Positions 18,831 to 26,562 of a DNA stretch of 64,000 bases are shown piece after piece (within the stretch, counting starts at the first letter, position 1; every line of letters begins with the position of its first letter). Source of the DNA: Diabrotica undecimpunctata (taxonomy: Eukaryota > Arthropoda > Insecta > Coleoptera > Chrysomelidae). The DNA lies in NCBI RefSeq assembly GCF_040954645.1, contig NC_092804.1:87418217-87482216 (forward strand), given 5' to 3'. The position numbers and the translations under genes are program-made. The notes below the pieces were generated by a model that was given only the letters and a program-made list of their open reading frames with translations, did no database searches and was not told where the DNA came from.

Positions 18831-19335
18831 TGTTACGATAAATTATGATTCATATTTAACTGTAAACATCTTTTTCTAAGTATTTTTTAGCAGGTAATAC
18901 CCAAACGGGTCCCCTCTTATACCTGCAATTGGAACTCTCCAGAAAAAGGTCGAGTAAATTCGTTGGCGACCGAAGATCAAAGAAGCTTCGAGATAAATAA
19001 AATGAGGTATAAGACCGGTCTTTTTCCATGGCATTCGAGACAATTCAAGGGTCAACACAGGTCAACATCCATGGGATTCGAGAGATTCCAGGCTAACGGC
19101 TGTTTGATATATATAGCGGAACTTTCATTGTGTGAGGCAGTCTGAAAATATAATCGAGTCGATTTTCGAATTGTAACGCGGAAATAAATATTGTAAATAA
19201 ATAATATAAATTAAAGTAGTTGTAATAAGTGTAAGAATATTGTATATATAAATTAAATAAAGACTTTAATAAAGTAATTGTTAGAATATTTTATAATAAA
19301 TAAAGTGAATAAATTAGACTAATAAACTTAGTTCA
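18831..19335 (+). repeat. 5' LTR of Gypsy B
   Basis: Begins TGTTACGATAAATTATG and ends ..GTTCA just before the primer-binding site. A TATA box (TTGATATATATAGCGG) lies at ~19103-19118 and an AATAAA-rich stretch at 19240-19330. The first ~155 bp recur at 24589-24745. Confidence 0.88.
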
Positions 19336-19350
19336 TTGGTGTCAAAAGTG
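19336..19350 (+). promoter_or_regulatory. tRNA primer-binding site of Gypsy B
   Basis: TTGGTGTCAAAAGTG directly follows the LTR end; TGG-x-GTCA-type sites at this position are typical minus-strand primer-binding sites of LTR elements. The tRNA species was not determined. Confidence 0.7.
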
Positions 19351-19372
19351 AAATATAAAATAAATTGTGAAA

Positions 19373-19858
19373 ATGACTACGATTTATGAGCTCACAGTTA
19401 CGAATTTAAAAAGACATCTCGAGGATAGAAAATTAGTTTCTACCGGAAAAAAGGCTGAGTTAGTTCAACGACTAAAGAACGCTTTGGAGGAAGAGGGTTT
19501 AGACCCGGAAACTTATATATTTGAAGCCAAACATGTTGCTGTCATCTCGTCGATTTCGAAAGTTTCTGGTGACATCGCATCATTAGAGAATAAAGTTTCT
19601 GACGATATTTCGAAAGTTTCTGGTGACATCGCATCATTAGAGAACAAAGTTTCTGACGATATTTCAAAAGTTTCTTCTTATGTAGCCAAAGTTTCTGGTG
19701 ACATCGCATCATTAGAAGACAAAGTTTCTAACGAGATTTCTTCTCTGGAAAGCAAAGTTTCTACTAACATCTCTTTGGAAATCTCTAAAGTCACTTCTGA
19801 GATCTCTGCCCTCGACGATAGAATATCTTCGTTAAAAAAACCAAGTTGCTGCCGATAA
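19373..19858 (+). CDS. Gag N-terminus of Gypsy B: SAP domain plus repeated coiled coil
   Basis: ATG at 19373. Residues ~5-45 form a SAP motif (LTVTNLKRHLEDRKLVSTGK, then KAELVQRLKNAL), a helix-turn-helix-like module that binds scaffold DNA in nuclear proteins. Residues ~60-160 are an almost pure coiled coil made of repeats of KVSGDIASLENKVSDDIS (two near-identical units, then two diverged ones). The frame ends at 19858 only because of a slip in an A7 run (19836-19842); the coiled coil continues in another frame as DKLAFEEKMKEMERKMEE. Confidence 0.85.
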   Translation: MTTIYELTVTNLKRHLEDRKLVSTGKKAELVQRLKNALEEEGLDPETYIFEAKHVAVISSISKVSGDIASLENKVSDDISKVSGDIASLENKVSDDISKVSSYVAKVSGDIASLEDKVSNEISSLESKVSTNISLEISKVTSEISALDDRISSLKKPSCCR

Positions 19859-20713
19859 GTTGGCCTTCGAAGAGAAGATGAAAGAGATGGAAAGAAAGAT
19901 GGAGGAAACAGGGACAGCAGAGAGAGGAAACAATCCAATTACAGTAGAGACAAAAGAAGATGAGACGAAATGTAAGTTGGAAACACGAAATTTGAAGGAA
20001 GTGGAGGTTCTGTTCATGTTAAAGTCCCAACTTTTGACAGAAAATCGTCATGGAACAACTACATGAAACAGTTCGAATCAGCTGCAAGAGCGAATGGATG
20101 GTCTGAAAAAGAAAAGGCTGTAAACCTGACTATCGCTCTTCGAGGAGATGCCTTAGATGTGCTTCAGACAATAGCCGTAGAGGAGATGGATGATTTCGAA
20201 CAACTTAAGAAGAGGTTAAATATGTGATATGGCCACGAACATTTGGAGCATGTATATCAATCGCAGCTTAAAAATAGAAGACAAAAGAGAGATGAGGCTC
20301 TTCAAGAATATGAGGTAGATATTGCCAGATTAGTACGATATGCTTATCCAACAGTTCCCGAAGACATGATGGAAAAATTGGCCGTTCAAACATTTATTGA
20401 TGGTCTTCGTGATTATGAAATGCAGAGAACACTGCGATTAGCTCGTTACAAGACGCTGGCTGATGTTTTATCCGCCGCCCTCGAATACGAGTCAGCTACG
20501 CAGGCCTCTGGCGGTTACAGTAAAGTTAGGACTGTAAAAGAAGAAGGAGATGAAGATAAATTTGACCAGCTCGTTAATATGATGAAAAGTATGACATACA
20601 AGAAAACGAAGACCATAAAATGCTGGAATTGTGGCGAAATAGGACACGTACGAAGTTCATGTAAGCACCCTAGGTACGACGCAAATCAAGAAACTCACCA
20701 TCAGGAAAACTAG
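19843..20713 (+). pseudogene. Gag capsid and CCHC part of Gypsy B
   Basis: After the A-run frameshift a further frameshift near 20025 leads to the capsid-like segment WNNYMKQFESAARANGWSEK...VNLTIALRGDALDVL, a TGA at 20225-20227, and LKNRRQKRDEALQEYEVDIA...VQTFIDGLRDYEMQRTLRLA, which is a retrotransposon Gag domain. It ends with one CCHC zinc knuckle, CWNCGEIGHVRSSC (20622-20663), and a stop at 20711-20713. Confidence 0.85.
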
Positions 20714-20724
20714 ACCGGGTCGGC

Positions 20725-21105
20725 CTTAGGGGAGCAGCTTCGACCCGTAACTTTTCCAAAGACCCTCTCATACTAATAGCTTCTTTGAAATGTCGTGAAG
20801 ATAGTGTATATGTAGATGGAGAAATAAATGGTAAAAGGCATACGTTGTTGGTGGATACCGGAGCGACCAGAACCATTATACGCCCGACAGTTATAAACAG
20901 CCGTAAGAAACTGTTACGAACGAGGTTGCGACTTCGCACCGCTACAGGTGAAAATGCCAACATTCATGGAGAAATCCAGGTACAATTAGGAATTGGAGCA
21001 GAAAAGTTCGTCCATACTGTTATAGTTGCTGACATCGAAGAGGATGTTATATTAGGAATGGACGTAATGAATATGCATGGATTCCAATTGGATTTTAAGA
21101 ATTAG
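20725..21105 (+). CDS. Protease of Gypsy B
   Basis: Retropepsin: LLVDTGATRTIIRP carries the catalytic DTG (~20842-20885) and DVILGMDVMNMHGF is the conserved C-terminal strand. The frame is open from about 20725 without an ATG, as expected for a Pol reached by frameshift or readthrough from Gag. TAG at 21103-21105 closes it within a linker and is probably mutational. Confidence 0.85.
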   Translation, partial: LRGAASTRNFSKDPLILIASLKCREDSVYVDGEINGKRHTLLVDTGATRTIIRPTVINSRKKLLRTRLRLRTATGENANIHGEIQVQLGIGAEKFVHTVIVADIEEDVILGMDVMNMHGFQLDFKN

Positions 21106-21132
21106 GTAATCAAAGAGAAAGGGACACCTGTT

Positions 21133-22425
21133 ATGATGGAGCCTTGGAACCATGACGACGAGGTTGGCCGAGGAATCATAATTGGAAAGGAATTGGTGAC
21201 TTCGGCTAAAGAAATACCCAGTGAACATCTAGAAAGAGGAACTTGTGTACCTGTGACATCCATAATCCTTCAGACGACAACATCCGATAATTCCAACGAC
21301 AAATTCGACCAAATGGTTTCAGTTCCTGGACAGTCTCTAAATCAGATGGAGAAAAGGAAATTAAGGGAATTTCTTCGGCAGTATCGTGATATTTTCGTAC
21401 CGAAAGGAGGAAAGACGGGAAGAACTACCGTTGTTAAGCATAAAATTGATACTGGTAATGCTAAACCAATTCGTCTAACAGCTCGACGATTACCACAGAC
21501 GAAAAGAGAGGAAGCTGAAACGATTGTTCAGGAAATGAAGAAAGACGGGGTGATAGAACCTTTTACGAGCCCATGGGTCGTTACCGTTTGCTGAACAACG
21601 TTACCAAGAAAGATAGTTATCCTCTGCCTCGGATCGACGATACATTTTACACATTGGCTGGAAGTAAATTATTTTCTACTTTGGATTTGAAGTCTGGATA
21701 CTGGCAGGTAGAAATGGACCCAGTAGATAAAGAGAAGCCCGCCTTCACCACAGGATCTGGATTGTGGCAATTCAACGTGATGCCATTTGGACTCTGTAAT
21801 GCTCCTGCGACATTTAAGAGGCTTATGGAAAATGTGTAACCCCAAGGGGTTATCTTGGAAAACATGCCCGGTTTATCTAGATGACATAATTGTCTTGGGG
21901 GAGACGTTTGAAGATCATCTGAAGAATTTAGAAAACGTTTTTAATCGACTTAAAGCTGTCCAATTGACGTTAAACCCCAAGAAGTGCCAGCTATTTGAAG
22001 GTAAAGTCAATTATCTGGGTCATATAGTCAGTAAAGAAGGAGTGGCCGTGGATAAGGGAAAAATCGATTCCATTAAGGAATGGCCAGTACCAACGAACAT
22101 ACATCAAGTGAGAAGTTTTCTTGGACTATGTACTTACTACCGGAGGTTAATTAAGAAGTTTGCAGATATCACTAAGCCATTAACGCGACTTACGGAGGAA
22201 GCAAGAGATTACTGCTGGGATACAGACTGCCAAAATGCCTTTGAGACCTTGAAAAAGAATTTAATCACAGCACCAATTTTAGGATATCCACTGCCAGAAG
22301 GAGAGTTCATCTTAGATACAGACGCAAGTAATGTGGGAATCGGAGGAGTGCTATCTCAGATTCAAGGTGGACAGGAACGAGTCCTTGGATATTTTAGTAA
22401 GATTCTTTCAAACGATGCAGTTTAA
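21133..22425 (+). pseudogene. Reverse transcriptase and start of RNase H of Gypsy B
   Basis: Three overlapping frames together give RT: RLPQTKREEAETIVQEMKKD and GVIEPFTSPW (to 21594), NVTKKDSYPLPRIDDTFYTL, FSTLDLKSGYWQVEM, MPFGLCNAPATFKRLME (to 21839), CPVYLDDIIVLGETFEDHL (catalytic YLDD, ~21870), and FLGLCTYYRRLIKKFADI. RNase H begins with FILDTDASNVGIGGVLSQ (~22310) and breaks after YFSKIL at ~22410, where about 60 residues of the domain are deleted; the next recognisable part starts at ~22428 in another frame. Confidence 0.88.
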
Positions 22426-22956
22426 GAATCCAAAGGATCAGATAGCCAGATGGATCGAACGACGATTTCAAGATTGAGCACTGGGCTGGAGTTAGCCACA
22501 GAAACGCTAATTCTCTTTCCATAAGGCCATGCCCAGCAGATTGTTCCCACTGCAACAAAACGAAATCCAAGGAAGCAGCAGTGCTAAGAACAACGATGGT
22601 CAACGACTATGGGACGCCTACTAAGATAAGGGAAGAACAAGAGAGAGAGAGATCCAGTTATACAGAAAATTCGAAAATCTAAAGAGGAAAACCGTCGACC
22701 ACCTTGGCAAGAAATATCAAACCTATGCTCAGTAGTTAAGACGTATTGGGCCCAGTGGGACTCATTTATCATGGAAGATAGCTTGCTCAAACGAGTACTG
22801 GAAAATGATGACGGTTCAGAGAAGAGAAGACAGTTGGTGATCCCAAAGAGCAGAATAGCCTTCTAGTACTTCGTCAGTTACACGACAGTCCATCAGGAGG
22901 GCATTTCGGTGTAAAGAAAACAAACCATTCAGCGAATTCGGGAACAGTTTTATTGG
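22426..22956 (+). pseudogene. RNase H tail and integrase zinc region of Gypsy B
   Basis: Frameshifted remains: NPKDQIARWIERR, an HWAGVSHRNANSLS end of RNase H, and a CPADCSHCNKT-like cysteine cluster (~22530-22560), then a linker. The integrase H2C2 region is present but broken around 22800-22950. The RNase H active-site centre is missing, so this copy cannot reverse-transcribe on its own. Confidence 0.7.
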
Positions 22957-24264
22957 ATGAACAGTTCCGACGACGTAAAGGACTGGTGTAAGAAATGTAC
23001 TATTTGTGCCTCGAGTAACGGGCCTCACCGAAAAAGGAGAGGTCCTATGAGACAATATAATGTTGGAAGCCCGTTTGAAAGAATAGCTTTGGACATCGCT
23101 GAGCCATTTCCAGAAAGTGAAAATGGAGGCAAGTACATGTTGGTAGTAATGGATTACTTCACTAAGTGGGTCGAGATTTACGCACTTCCAGACTAGAAGG
23201 ACGCCAACGTTGCAGATAAGTTGACCTAAGAATATATCTGCCGATTTGGAGTGCCTTTGGAGATCCATAGTGACCAACGAAGGAACTTCGAAAGCGATCT
23301 ATTCCAAGGAATATGTGATAAACTAGGCATAAAGAAAACAAGAACTACAGCGTATCATCGGCAATCGGATGGTATGGTAGAACGGATGAATAGGACAGTT
23401 GGCAAGTATTTGACAAAGATTGTGTCCGATCATCAGCGAGACTGGGACCAGTATCTTCCGTTCTTCACAATGGCCTACAGATCTGCTGTTAACGAATCAA
23501 CAGGCCAGACACCAGCCAGGGTCGTATTCGGACGCGAGATGCGACTACCTTGTGATCTAGAGTTTGGGTGTCGGCCTGGAGAAGATTTAGCAGGTGAAGA
23601 TTATCTGATTGAATTACGAAGAAGAATGGACGATGTACACGAGTTGCTCCGTTCCCATCTTCAGATCGCTAGCGACCGAATGAAGAAACGATACGATACG
23701 CAATCCGAAAAGGGGTGCTTTAAGAAGAACGACAAAGTCTGGCTCTATAATCCCAAAAAGCGAAAAGGTTGTTCTCCCAAATTGCAGCCGTTTTGGGAAG
23801 GTCCATACCTCATTATGGAGAAGATCAACGATGTCATCTACCGAATAAGCAAGATTCCGAGGGGAAAGCCGATGATAGTACACCATAACCGGCTGGCGTC
23901 TTTCGAAGGTGACCACGACGTAGATGAAGAAGTAGAAGTAAACCACGTCCAAGATGTGTCTGACCTCACGTTTGGGGAATTCATGGGGGCCTATGGAGGT
24001 ACCGGTAAAGCAAGACATGGTGTTACCACTGAAGAAAAGCAAGATCTACTTGCGCTTCCCGATGACTACTCGCTGGCCCTTACCATTCCGGCCAGTATCA
24101 AAGACGCACCAGGGTTGGCATCCGTCTTTCGAAGGAAGTTCGGTCGAGTTGCAGAACTTCAATGCCAAGTGCCAGCTCCCGGGAAAGCCTTGAAACTCCA
24201 AGATGCATCACATTACCTTTTCTACCTGGTAACAAAAGACACTGCCCGTGACCAACCTACCTAA
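22957..24264 (+). pseudogene. Integrase of Gypsy B and beginning of the fused macrodomain
   Basis: Integrase in two pieces: C-x2-C half (WCKKCTICASSNGPHRKR) and first catalytic Asp region IALDIAEPFPESENGGKY (to 23196, TAG), then from 23251 HSDQRRNFESDLFQGICDKL (second Asp) and TAYHRQSDGMVERMNRTVGK with the third catalytic residue Glu. The GPF-like C-terminal module is PKLQPFWEGPYLIMEKINDV (~23780). After an acidic linker a macrodomain begins near 24040 (DDYSLALTIPASIKDAPGLA, FRRKFGRVAEL, HYLFYLVTKD) and is cut by TAA at 24262-24264. Confidence 0.87.
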
Positions 24265-24438
24265 CGAGATGTATGGGGAGCCTTACTTCAATTGAGAGAG
24301 CACGTACTAGAGTTCGACGTGAAAAAGTTAGCCATGCCAAAGTTGGAGTGCCGCCAATTAGATTGGAGGGTTATCCGAAGTATGGTGGAGGAGATCTTTA
24401 AAGACACCGAAGTCCAGGTGGTAGTCTGTTGCAATCCG
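24040..24438 (+). pseudogene. OARD1/TARG1-like macrodomain at the C-terminus of Gypsy B Pol
   Basis: The segment follows the order of OARD1-type macrodomains: a YSLA strand, an A-G/P-G-L-A-x-x-F-x-x-K-F-G helix (APGLASVFRRKFGRVAEL), a GKALKLQ strand, YLFYLVTKD with the Lys that is catalytic in this family, a Q/K-P-T-Y-like turn broken by TAA, LLQLREHVLEFDVKKLAMPK, and EEIFKDTEVQVVVC. In OARD1 the catalytic Asp sits in a G-C-G-L-D loop; here the loop reads LECRQLDW and is two residues short, so this copy has lost it. The frame is the same on both sides of the stop. Known members remove ADP-ribose from proteins; a role in the retrotransposon is inference. Confidence 0.8.
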
Positions 24439-24471
24439 CATAGTTACTGGAGCGGAGAGAAAACCGTCCCT

Positions 24472-24528
24472 TGTCATTTTTATACAACTGGAAGTTGTAA
24501 AAGTGGGTCCAGTTGCCGATACCAGCAT
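24472..24528 (+). pseudogene. CCCH zinc finger at the end of Gypsy B Pol
   Basis: In frame with the macrodomain: CHFYTTGSCKSGSSCRYQH, i.e. C-x7-C-x5-C-x3-H, the classical RNA-binding CCCH spacing. A proline-rich tail follows and the frame runs into the polypurine tract. All four ligands are intact. Confidence 0.85.
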
Positions 24529-24588
24529 ACCGTTCCAGTTCCAGTCCCGACAAGGTTCCAGGAGGAACCATCTTTTAAGAGAGGGCAA

Positions 24589-24745
24589 TGTTACGATAAA
24601 TTATTATTCATATTAACTGTAAACATCTTTTTCTAACAAGTATTTTTTAGCAGGTAATACCCAAACGGGTCCCCTCTTATACCTGCGATTGGAACTCTCC
24701 AGAAAAGGGTCGAGTAAATTCGTTGGCGACCGAAGATCAAAGAAT
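24589..24745 (+). repeat. Truncated 3' LTR of Gypsy B
   Basis: Starts TGTTACGATAAATTATT right after the purine tract TTTTAAGAGAGGGCAA and matches the 5' LTR up to GACCGAAGATCAAAGAA. The remaining ~350 bp are absent; a MITE-like repeat follows immediately. Confidence 0.9.
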
Positions 24746-24911: not shown

Positions 24912-26562
24912 TTAACTTTTAACTGTTGTTTTTTTGCATCCTATAACCATTCCTTCTCATTCACGATCAACTTCTTATAGCCTATTTTTGTCTGTTTTTT
25001 TTTACTTTTTTCTTTTTTTGCTATTCTATATTTTTCTGTATGTCTTTTTATTTTGATGTCAGATCATTATTTATGTAGATGCGATCTTAATGGTAAAACT
25101 CGTATAAGGCTGTATAGAACACTGATAGTCACCGTTCTCACATATGGATCAGAGGCATGGATGCTAACGAAAACAGATGAATCCGCTCTATCCATTTTTG
25201 AAAGAAAGGTGCTACGCAAGATATTCGGAGCGGTCTGTGAGAACGGAATATGGAGGCGTAGATATAACTTTGAACTGCAGAATATCTACAAGCATACGTT
25301 TGGTGGTAAAGATATTACCACTATAATTAAGCGAAACCGCCTGCAGTGGGCAGGACATGTAGCCCGGGCCCCTAAGTCAAACATGATAAAAAAGATTCTA
25401 ACAGCGCAACCCGTGGGAATGAGAAGACGGGGTAGACCAAAGCTGAGGTGGATTAACGGGGTAACACAAGATGCCGAGAAGATCGGAGTCGGCAACTGGA
25501 AAATGCAAGCGAGGGACAGAATAGAATGGCGTAGAAAGCTTGAGAAGGTCGAGGTCCTCTAAGGGCTGTAGCACCAAGATGATGATGATGATGATCTTAA
25601 TGGTATTTCATCTTACTTTTCTTATTTAATATCTCAATTTTATACGTGAATATTTCTCTTTCTATGGCGTAGACTGTTTCTCCTATTTTTGTTGCGTTCC
25701 TCAGTTGTATTTGCACCTGCAGTTCTTGTGATATAAATGCTTCCATGCTTTGTTTTAGTTTATTATCGTCATTTGTATCTATTTTTAAACTATAAATTCA
25801 AACTTCTCTTTTTACTTGTTTTTTTTTTCAGTTGTTCTATTCTGTCTTGTAATTGTTTCATGTCGTTATTTTTTTCGTTCTTTATCTCTTTTAGTTGTTT
25901 ATTACTTTCCATTTGTTTTTTTCTTTCTTTTCCTTTTTCTCCGTGTCACTTTTAGAAGGTGTTCGCTTTGTCATGTTACAATGTAAATACTTTCAAAATG
26001 TCATGCTGCTCTCTTCTCTTCTTCATGCCTCTTCATTCTTCTGCTCGCTTTTTCATCTGTATCAATTTCGCTTCCTATTCTTCTGTTACTTGTATTCATT
26101 TTCTTATTTTAATAAAACTTTTAAATTACGATATCAATTATTAATTAATATTATTTAGTATTTTAATTTAATTCTAATCTAACTTTAATTTCATTTATTC
26201 TAAGGCCGGATCTGGATTTTTGTGATAATATTATGAACCTTTTATTTTAATACCTAATTTCTTGCTGTCACTAATTAAGTTCTTATCTATCAAAAATGCG
26301 TATGAATGCCGAAGCGATTCAACCTCAATATGACTTAGGCATTCGCAAAATTGGTTTTCCCAGCTTTAACAGAATTATGAATTTAATAAATCTTGTTAAA
26401 ATGGTCACAATAGTTCAATTTTAGTTGTCTGATGTTGTTTCTTTAATTCACTATTTAAACATTTGTTTCTGAGCTTTGTTGCATTTTCTTACTTTTAATT
26501 CCCCAATTATTGGAGTTTATTACGAAGCGAAAATCAAGTGTAACTACTGTTGTTACTTGCAG
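24912..26562 (-). mobile_element. LINE 5' part (5' UTR and coiled-coil ORF1), minus strand
   Basis: This is the reverse complement of the sequence at 57385-57800 plus 60654-61490: the same 5' UTR start (26562: CCTGCAAGTAACAACAGTAG), the Lys/Glu-rich ORF1 coding for a coiled coil (KMTKRTSSK-type start, many KEQMESNK-type repeats), and the GATCGCATCTACATAAATAATGATCTGA segment. It contains an inserted LINE tail (25095-25591). Its downstream half is probably 17440-18830. Confidence 0.78.
25053..25562 (+). pseudogene. LINE ORF2 C-terminus (5'-truncated insertion 25095-25591)
   Basis: From ~25095: KTRIRLYRTLIVTVLTYGSE, WMLTKTDESALSIFERKVLR, IFGAVCENGIWRRRYNFEL, RLQWAGHVARAP, RRRGRPKLRWINGV, ending in a stop at 25560-25562 and a (GAT)n tail. 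GATCTTAATGGTA at 25082-25094 is repeated after the tail at ~25593-25606, a 13-bp target-site duplication. The first ~14 residues of the frame belong to the interrupted LINE. This tail is one of the best preserved in the window. Confidence 0.9.

Follow-up and report, generated by a model that had tools for sequence, protein, structure and literature searches.

A TARG1/OARD1-type macrodomain and a CCCH zinc finger fused to Pol in Ty3/Gypsy retrotransposons of Diabrotica and other beetles

Can a Ty3/Gypsy retrotransposon carry a host-type macrodomain behind its integrase, and what could the element use it for? This question was raised by a stretch of 64,000 nucleotides from the beetle Diabrotica undecimpunctata (contig NC_092804.1, positions 87,418,217 to 87,482,216; hereafter the window), in which positions 18831-24744 form a Ty3/Gypsy element with a 5' long terminal repeat (LTR), gag, protease, reverse transcriptase, RNase H, integrase and a 3' LTR that is cut off at 24744. 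A sequence-only reading of this stretch had proposed that Pol is fused to an OARD1/TARG1-like macrodomain and a CCCH zinc finger. The fusion is present: within the element, Gypsy Pol continues in frame into a macrodomain of this type and a CCCH finger. The locus itself is a decayed member of a Ty3/Gypsy family that has many copies in a Diabrotica-like beetle.

A macrodomain and a zinc finger at the end of Pol

All features described here lie on the forward strand. The open frame at 23230-24261 encodes the end of the integrase core, the p58 C-terminal (GPF-like) module, an acidic linker and the N-terminal half of the macrodomain. Past a TAA at 24262-24264, the only in-frame stop between 23230 and 24633, the same frame is open from 24265 to 24633 and encodes the C-terminal half and the finger. 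The halves of the macrodomain (24028..24426), divided by this TAA, were searched separately. The N-terminal half matched human OARD1 (2eee) with an expectation value (E) of 1.3e-8, the C-terminal half OARD1 (4j5q) with 4.9e-4. From the 'almost complete' OARD1 signature seen earlier, the loop with the catalytic Asp125 of TARG1 is missing. The CCCH finger (24460..24528) has an intact C-x7-C-x5-C-x3-H motif at 24469-24528, as had been claimed, and scored 24.3 bits against a Pfam zf-CCCH cut-off of 20.5 (PF00642, 3e-5); it also matched chains of CPSF4, and the same profile was above its cut-off in database relatives. The fusion runs up to the polypurine tract (24576..24588, read from the sequence), which lies directly before the 3' LTR.

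Membership of the TARG1/OARD1 group was indicated both by sequence similarity and by the predicted fold of relatives, which is that of an OARD1-type macrodomain. The Pfam Macro profile (PF01661), which had been expected to match along with zf-CCCH, gave no match: none in the window (E allowed up to 10), P0001-P0003 (up to 0.1) or P0006 (up to 1), and none in genomic copy L006; the HMMER filters discard most weak matches, so this absence says little. The assignment is instead based on the comparison with OARD1 chains and on fold searches, and the domain may go unnoticed because the Pfam model misses it.

Among database proteins the closest was P0001 of Diabrotica virgifera virgifera, with 89% identity over the part searched. 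It is one chain of 419 amino acids. Its integrase part matches Ty3 Gag-Pol (2.6e-9), its macrodomain OARD1 (1.3e-22) and its finger CCCH chains of CPSF4 and KIAA1064 (0.003-0.005). The only long protein among 346 candidates, P0006, is encoded on a contig of 5313 bases. Its 1339 amino acids run stop-free from within the protease through reverse transcriptase, RNase H, integrase and macrodomain to the CCCH finger, with a match to Ty3 Gag-Pol of 2.1e-127; its protease part is incomplete and below the cut-off. The Ty3/Gypsy order of protease, reverse transcriptase, RNase H and integrase, found in pieces in the window, is whole in P0006. The fusion was therefore confirmed in single chains, and the uninterrupted frame of P0006 shows that the region is not part of a neighbouring host gene.

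A search with a four-row profile yielded 56 proteins (E no higher than 0.001) from 1454 candidates. The named element-bearing proteins came from Diabrotica virgifera, D. undecimpunctata, Gonioctena, Molorchus, Pyrocoelia, Acanthoscelides and Psylliodes. All six of these genera are beetles; this taxonomic range is a lower bound, because the search could show only proteins of about 102-326 amino acids. For Psylliodes only the linker and the N-terminal half of the macrodomain were found, and for Acanthoscelides a macrodomain alone (P0018) and a macrodomain joined to gag-like sequence (P0042). Eight of the 14 element rows had the CCCH finger, and some of the other six were incomplete. The remaining proteins were mostly stand-alone macrodomains, and the two named ones among them were bacterial.

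Two further observations concern annotation. The gene model of P0042 connects gag-like sequence at its N-terminus directly to the macrodomain, with Pol left out, which is likely an annotation join. Three Diabrotica proteins labelled ADP-ribose glycohydrolase OARD1-like (P0008, P0011 and P0021) fall on pieces of the retrotransposon, P0008 containing the element linker and P0021 the element integrase tail. By their sequences they look like misnamed element fragments, which suggests that in beetles the name OARD1-like has been given to some genes that are pieces of retrotransposons.

With the N-terminal half of the macrodomain as query, all 150 scored places in the genome (of 4913 candidates, window included) matched, giving at least 150 places. 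A look for intact copies had been suggested as a check, and copies with long open frames were abundant: 110 of the 150 had open frames of at least 1300 amino acids, 62 of 1390-1440 and 44 of at least 1700, as if some copies encoded Pol by itself and others encoded it in one frame with Gag. The gag tandem repeats (see below) may explain the length spread among the longer frames. All 29 loci fetched besides the window copy (the best matches) kept the frame open through the finger region. In 23 of these 29 it stops a few codons into the LTR, directly after the polypurine tract, and in 23 of 29 GCAA immediately precedes the LTR start TGTTACGATAA. An integrase query was also used, so that copies were not picked by their macrodomain; 30 copies were fetched from 150 scored places, and 27 were open through the finger, the window being among the 3 that were not.

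Active site, origin and selection

According to excerpts of PMC7050489, catalysis by TARG1 involves Lys84 and an acidic residue at 125, termed Glu125 there; excerpts of PMC8501950 report that a K84A mutant did not rescue the reversal of DNA ADP-ribosylation. Both positions were compared in 14 element rows, from which, as from the first tree, P0004, P0005, P0011, P0017, P0020, P0021, P0022, P0042 and P0055 were excluded as truncated or chimeric. Lys84 is retained in the window copy and in 13 of 14 rows, P0007 having Arg, and Asp125 in 9; both residues are kept in 8, namely those of Gonioctena, Molorchus, Pyrocoelia and Acanthoscelides and one further row. In the relatives of the window element (5 of 14 rows) a deletion of 2 residues takes out the Asp125 loop. 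The same 5 of 5 rows have Asp at M40 and Glu at G121, so that this family carries acidic residues in both phosphate-binding loops. That the window copy or its family encodes an active ADP-ribosyl hydrolase, as the earlier reading implied, is thus not supported by the alignment.

A search of the same genome with human OARD1 revealed a second family that shares the integrase-macrodomain-CCCH build of the window family (family A). In this family B, of which 27 copies were examined from 150 places listed, the place of Lys84 is taken by Arg in 27 of 27 and Asp125 is present in 26 of 27; it keeps more of the pocket than the window family. Of the catalytic pair that had been proposed for checking, Lys84 is therefore common among element rows, but Asp125 is lost in the window family and Lys84 replaced in family B. 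By alignment, neither of the two families seen in the genome has the full pair, and the residue lost differs between them. An element family with both residues was not seen in this genome: many of the best 150 places in a search with a Pyrocoelia-type macrodomain coincide with the OARD1-query places that yielded family B, and these places were not cut out, the listing being filled by the abundant families.

The best match to human OARD1 in the genome (49%), L032, lies in a 760-amino-acid open frame without a Pfam match and keeps both catalytic residues; we regard it as the OARD1-like gene of the host itself. It lies elsewhere and differs from the element macrodomains. In a midpoint-rooted tree, the element macrodomains, L032, human OARD1, P0019, P0049 and P0057 stood apart from 29 other rows (support 99/95). 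The element macrodomains formed one clade, with support of 98/92 in a first tree that had neither family B nor the host gene; the tree just described, which has both, also omits P0035, P0054, P0058 and P0059 (long-branched) and P0008, P0013 and P0015 (redundant). Because the element macrodomains of six beetle genera group beside animal OARD1, the simplest explanation, and a likely one, is that an animal OARD1 gene was captured once, with moderate support from the tree. The element macrodomain profile gave no match against viral contigs and genome contigs. A viral contig of 249 kb encodes a 43% relative of P0019 (L001:8001-8444); P0019 is the best-scoring non-element row against the element profile.

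Selection was estimated from the ratio of nonsynonymous to synonymous differences (pN/pS), with ranges from resampling of copies. In the integrase-chosen copies of family A, pN/pS was 0.07 (0.01-0.12) for the integrase (30 copies) and 0.14 (0.10-0.22) for the macrodomain (27 copies). The integrase-segment counts exclude two family B copies (L044 and L051); the macrodomain counts exclude two more, together with the 3 of 30 family A copies, window included, that are not open in the macrodomain. In the macro-chosen set (28 copies, without the window copy L002 and without L031, in which a small in-frame deletion distorts the CCCH count), the values were 0.13 (0.09-0.21) for the C-terminal half of the macrodomain, which lies outside the query, 0.07 (0.00-0.15) for the finger and 0.12 (0.08-0.16) for both together. 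For family B we obtained 0.29 (0.22-0.39) for the macrodomain (25 copies, macro-chosen) and 0.16 (0.09-0.24) for the integrase (17 copies). These values support purifying selection on the macrodomain, which is faster-evolving than the integrase (67% vs 83% identity between P0001 and P0006).

The window copy

The 5' LTR (18831..19335) has a clear start, TGTTACGAT, which is also found in the 3' copy; its end was placed from a likely primer-binding site at about 19337, a full 3' LTR being absent. This putative site was read from the sequence. The 3' LTR remnant (24589..24744) ends abruptly. About 150 bp are common to the LTR pair, with 3 substitutions and 2 indels, and the window LTR gave only short matches to the LTRs of other copies. 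A frame at 24981-25562, just past the cut-off, looks like the C-terminal end of the reverse transcriptase of a long interspersed nuclear element, and may stand in place of the remaining 3' LTR.

The gag region (19373..20713), broken by stops, contains a SAP domain (1.1e-6), tandem repeats at 19538-19762 and a CCHC knuckle at 20615-20668 (zf-CCHC, 2.3e-5), both Pfam matches being above their cut-offs. The repeats consist of KVSGDIASLENKVSDDIS units that appear coiled-coil-like by eye. The aspartic protease (20812..21072) was matched by PF13975 (6.4e-13, piece 20674-21102), and the C-terminal part of the reverse transcriptase with RNase H, in pieces at 21859..22410, by PF00078 (8.5e-12) and PF17919 (8e-20; piece 21781-22422). 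The zinc-binding and core parts of the integrase, in pieces at 22918..23358, were matched by PF17921 (4.5e-9) and by rve (0.0021, below the curated cut-off), and the p58 C-terminal module (23800..23898) by PF22938 (2.1e-13).

The copy is thoroughly broken, in gag and in several places of Pol, because 16 stop codons, the terminal one included, lie in one frame across 20674-24636; some of them sit where the true frame has shifted. The earlier claim that the frame is kept across a single TAA therefore applies to 23230-24633, but not to Pol as a whole.

Possible functions and known systems

We give about even chances to the reading that the macrodomain of the window family descends from a captured hydrolase but is now a pseudo-enzyme, which the integrase tail retains for binding. 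An ancestor would have taken up a working ADP-ribosyl hydrolase, perhaps directed against host ADP-ribosylation of element RNA, cDNA ends or proteins. In the window family, the remodelled pocket would no longer cleave ADP-ribose and probably would no longer bind it tightly. The domain would have been retained as a binding module in the position that the chromodomain has in chromoviruses, where the tail would anchor Pol or the integration complex to a partner from the host or from the element itself, and the CCCH finger would contribute contact with RNA. Beetle lineages that retain Lys84 and Asp125 may still erase ADP-ribose; judged by their residues, the elements of Molorchus, Gonioctena, Pyrocoelia and Acanthoscelides fit the counter-defence or RNA-targeting idea best.

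Several points weigh against this pseudo-enzyme reading. The tether is an analogy from position only, and the loss of residues is argued from an alignment. Other chemistry or another ligand is possible, because K84 is kept in the window family. More than one capture is possible too, because support for the single clade fell to 89/85 once family B and the host gene were added. P0012 and P0013 extend past the macrodomain without a CCCH finger, and pN/pS of the finger was 0.33 (0.00-0.63) in the integrase-chosen copies of family A (27 copies) and 0.68 (0.39-2.30) in family B (22 copies), all such values being simple pairwise counts on related copies, one set of which was picked by the N-terminal half of the macrodomain. 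Constraint on the finger is thus uncertain, and weaker than the support for the macrodomain.

A broader version is possible but clearly less probable to us: a beetle-wide Ty3/Gypsy lineage would have captured the host hydrolase as a counter-defence, and sublineages would have broken the catalytic pair differently under selection, giving a new integrase-bound targeting or adaptor module.

We consider it unlikely that the domain is an active counter-defence enzyme in the window family too, stripping PARP-added ADP-ribose from element proteins, RNA and cDNA ends and guided to RNA by the CCCH finger. TARG1 acts on proteins and on nucleic-acid ends (PMC7050489, excerpts) and reverses DNA ADP-ribosylation, in which K84A fails to rescue (PMC8501950, excerpts), both catalytic residues occur in 8 of 14 element rows, and ZAP, a CCCH and PARP-family protein, restricts retroelements in mammals (PMC4982230, excerpts). 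Viral proteins, several of them from insect-associated RNA viruses, match the predicted fold of P0009. However, family A is without the Asp125 loop and all 27 family B copies examined carry Arg at K84, and both families are abundant in the genome.

A similarly low probability attaches to an ADP-ribose reader, in which a non-cleaving macrodomain would steer integration to ADP-ribosylated chromatin, by analogy with chromodomains. Its position after the integrase, the chromodomain precedent (PMC3605345) and the retention of D125 (26 of 27) and more of the pocket in family B agree with such a role, but in the window family M40 is changed to Asp and G121 to Glu in 5 of 5 rows without Asp125, which is acidic where phosphates bind.

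That the macrodomain is a decaying passenger without function appears quite improbable. The catalytic residues were lost differently in the two families, and the domain changes faster than the integrase, as given above; against this stand the low pN/pS of the macrodomain (0.14 in family A, and 0.29 in family B) and a frame open through the finger region in all 29 non-window copies (best matches). A chance match, or read-through into a neighbouring host OARD1 gene, for which no support was found, the window copy alone being broken, can be set aside, as P0006 is one uninterrupted frame, the LTR follows directly after the frame in 23 of 29 copies, and the host-like L032 lies elsewhere and is different.

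The natural series of one domain, with the active site whole, the lysine changed or the aspartate lost, makes it directly testable whether the domain is an eraser, a reader or an adaptor, and with this whether insect retrotransposons are subject to host ADP-ribosylation. Searches of the open-licence literature turned up no description of a Gypsy integrase followed by a fused macrodomain, subscription papers being mostly outside this scope. In excerpts, a brittle star paper (PMC7217437) describes separate transcripts only and no fusion, and two ADP-ribosylation reviews (PMC8883491, PMC8385414) mention transposons solely for mutagenesis.

Compared with human TARG1/OARD1 (C6orf130), of the ALC1-like macrodomain class, the element version is fused to a retrotransposon Pol and has a CCCH finger attached, and the window family is without the Asp125 loop and acidic at M40 and G121. 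Among viruses, VP8 of Kadipiro virus, an example of the macrodomains of RNA viruses, has a predicted fold that matches the macrodomain of P0009 with 39% identity, but no integrase. In BFVD, this protein (39%) and proteins of thrips flavi- and virga-like viruses (20-34%) ranked among the five best viral fold matches for P0009. The predicted folds hint at repeated uptake of macrodomains by genetic parasites of insects. Fish endogenous retroviruses with a macro-domain open reading frame (Basta 2009, as cited in excerpts of PMC4977317) are likewise LTR elements with a macrodomain, but it is an additional reading frame in a vertebrate, and the likeness is one of description only. Orchid Gypsy elements with an AlkB m6A demethylase domain (PMC9289625, excerpts) are also Ty3/Gypsy elements with a captured host-type enzyme domain; they differ in having it in a separate reading frame, in the enzyme and in being from plants. 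Chromoviruses, which are Ty3/Gypsy elements as well, likewise bear an extra host-like domain at the C-terminus of the integrase; they carry a chromodomain, whereas the beetle elements have a macrodomain and a CCCH finger instead, and no chromodomain was found when P0006 was scanned with Pfam, E values of up to 1 being allowed. ADP-ribose biology thereby joins the short list of host-type domains taken up by Gypsy elements, in abundant families with many open copies. Uptake of such domains by Gypsy elements is already known, and the macrodomain-CCCH tail of the integrase is an addition to these.
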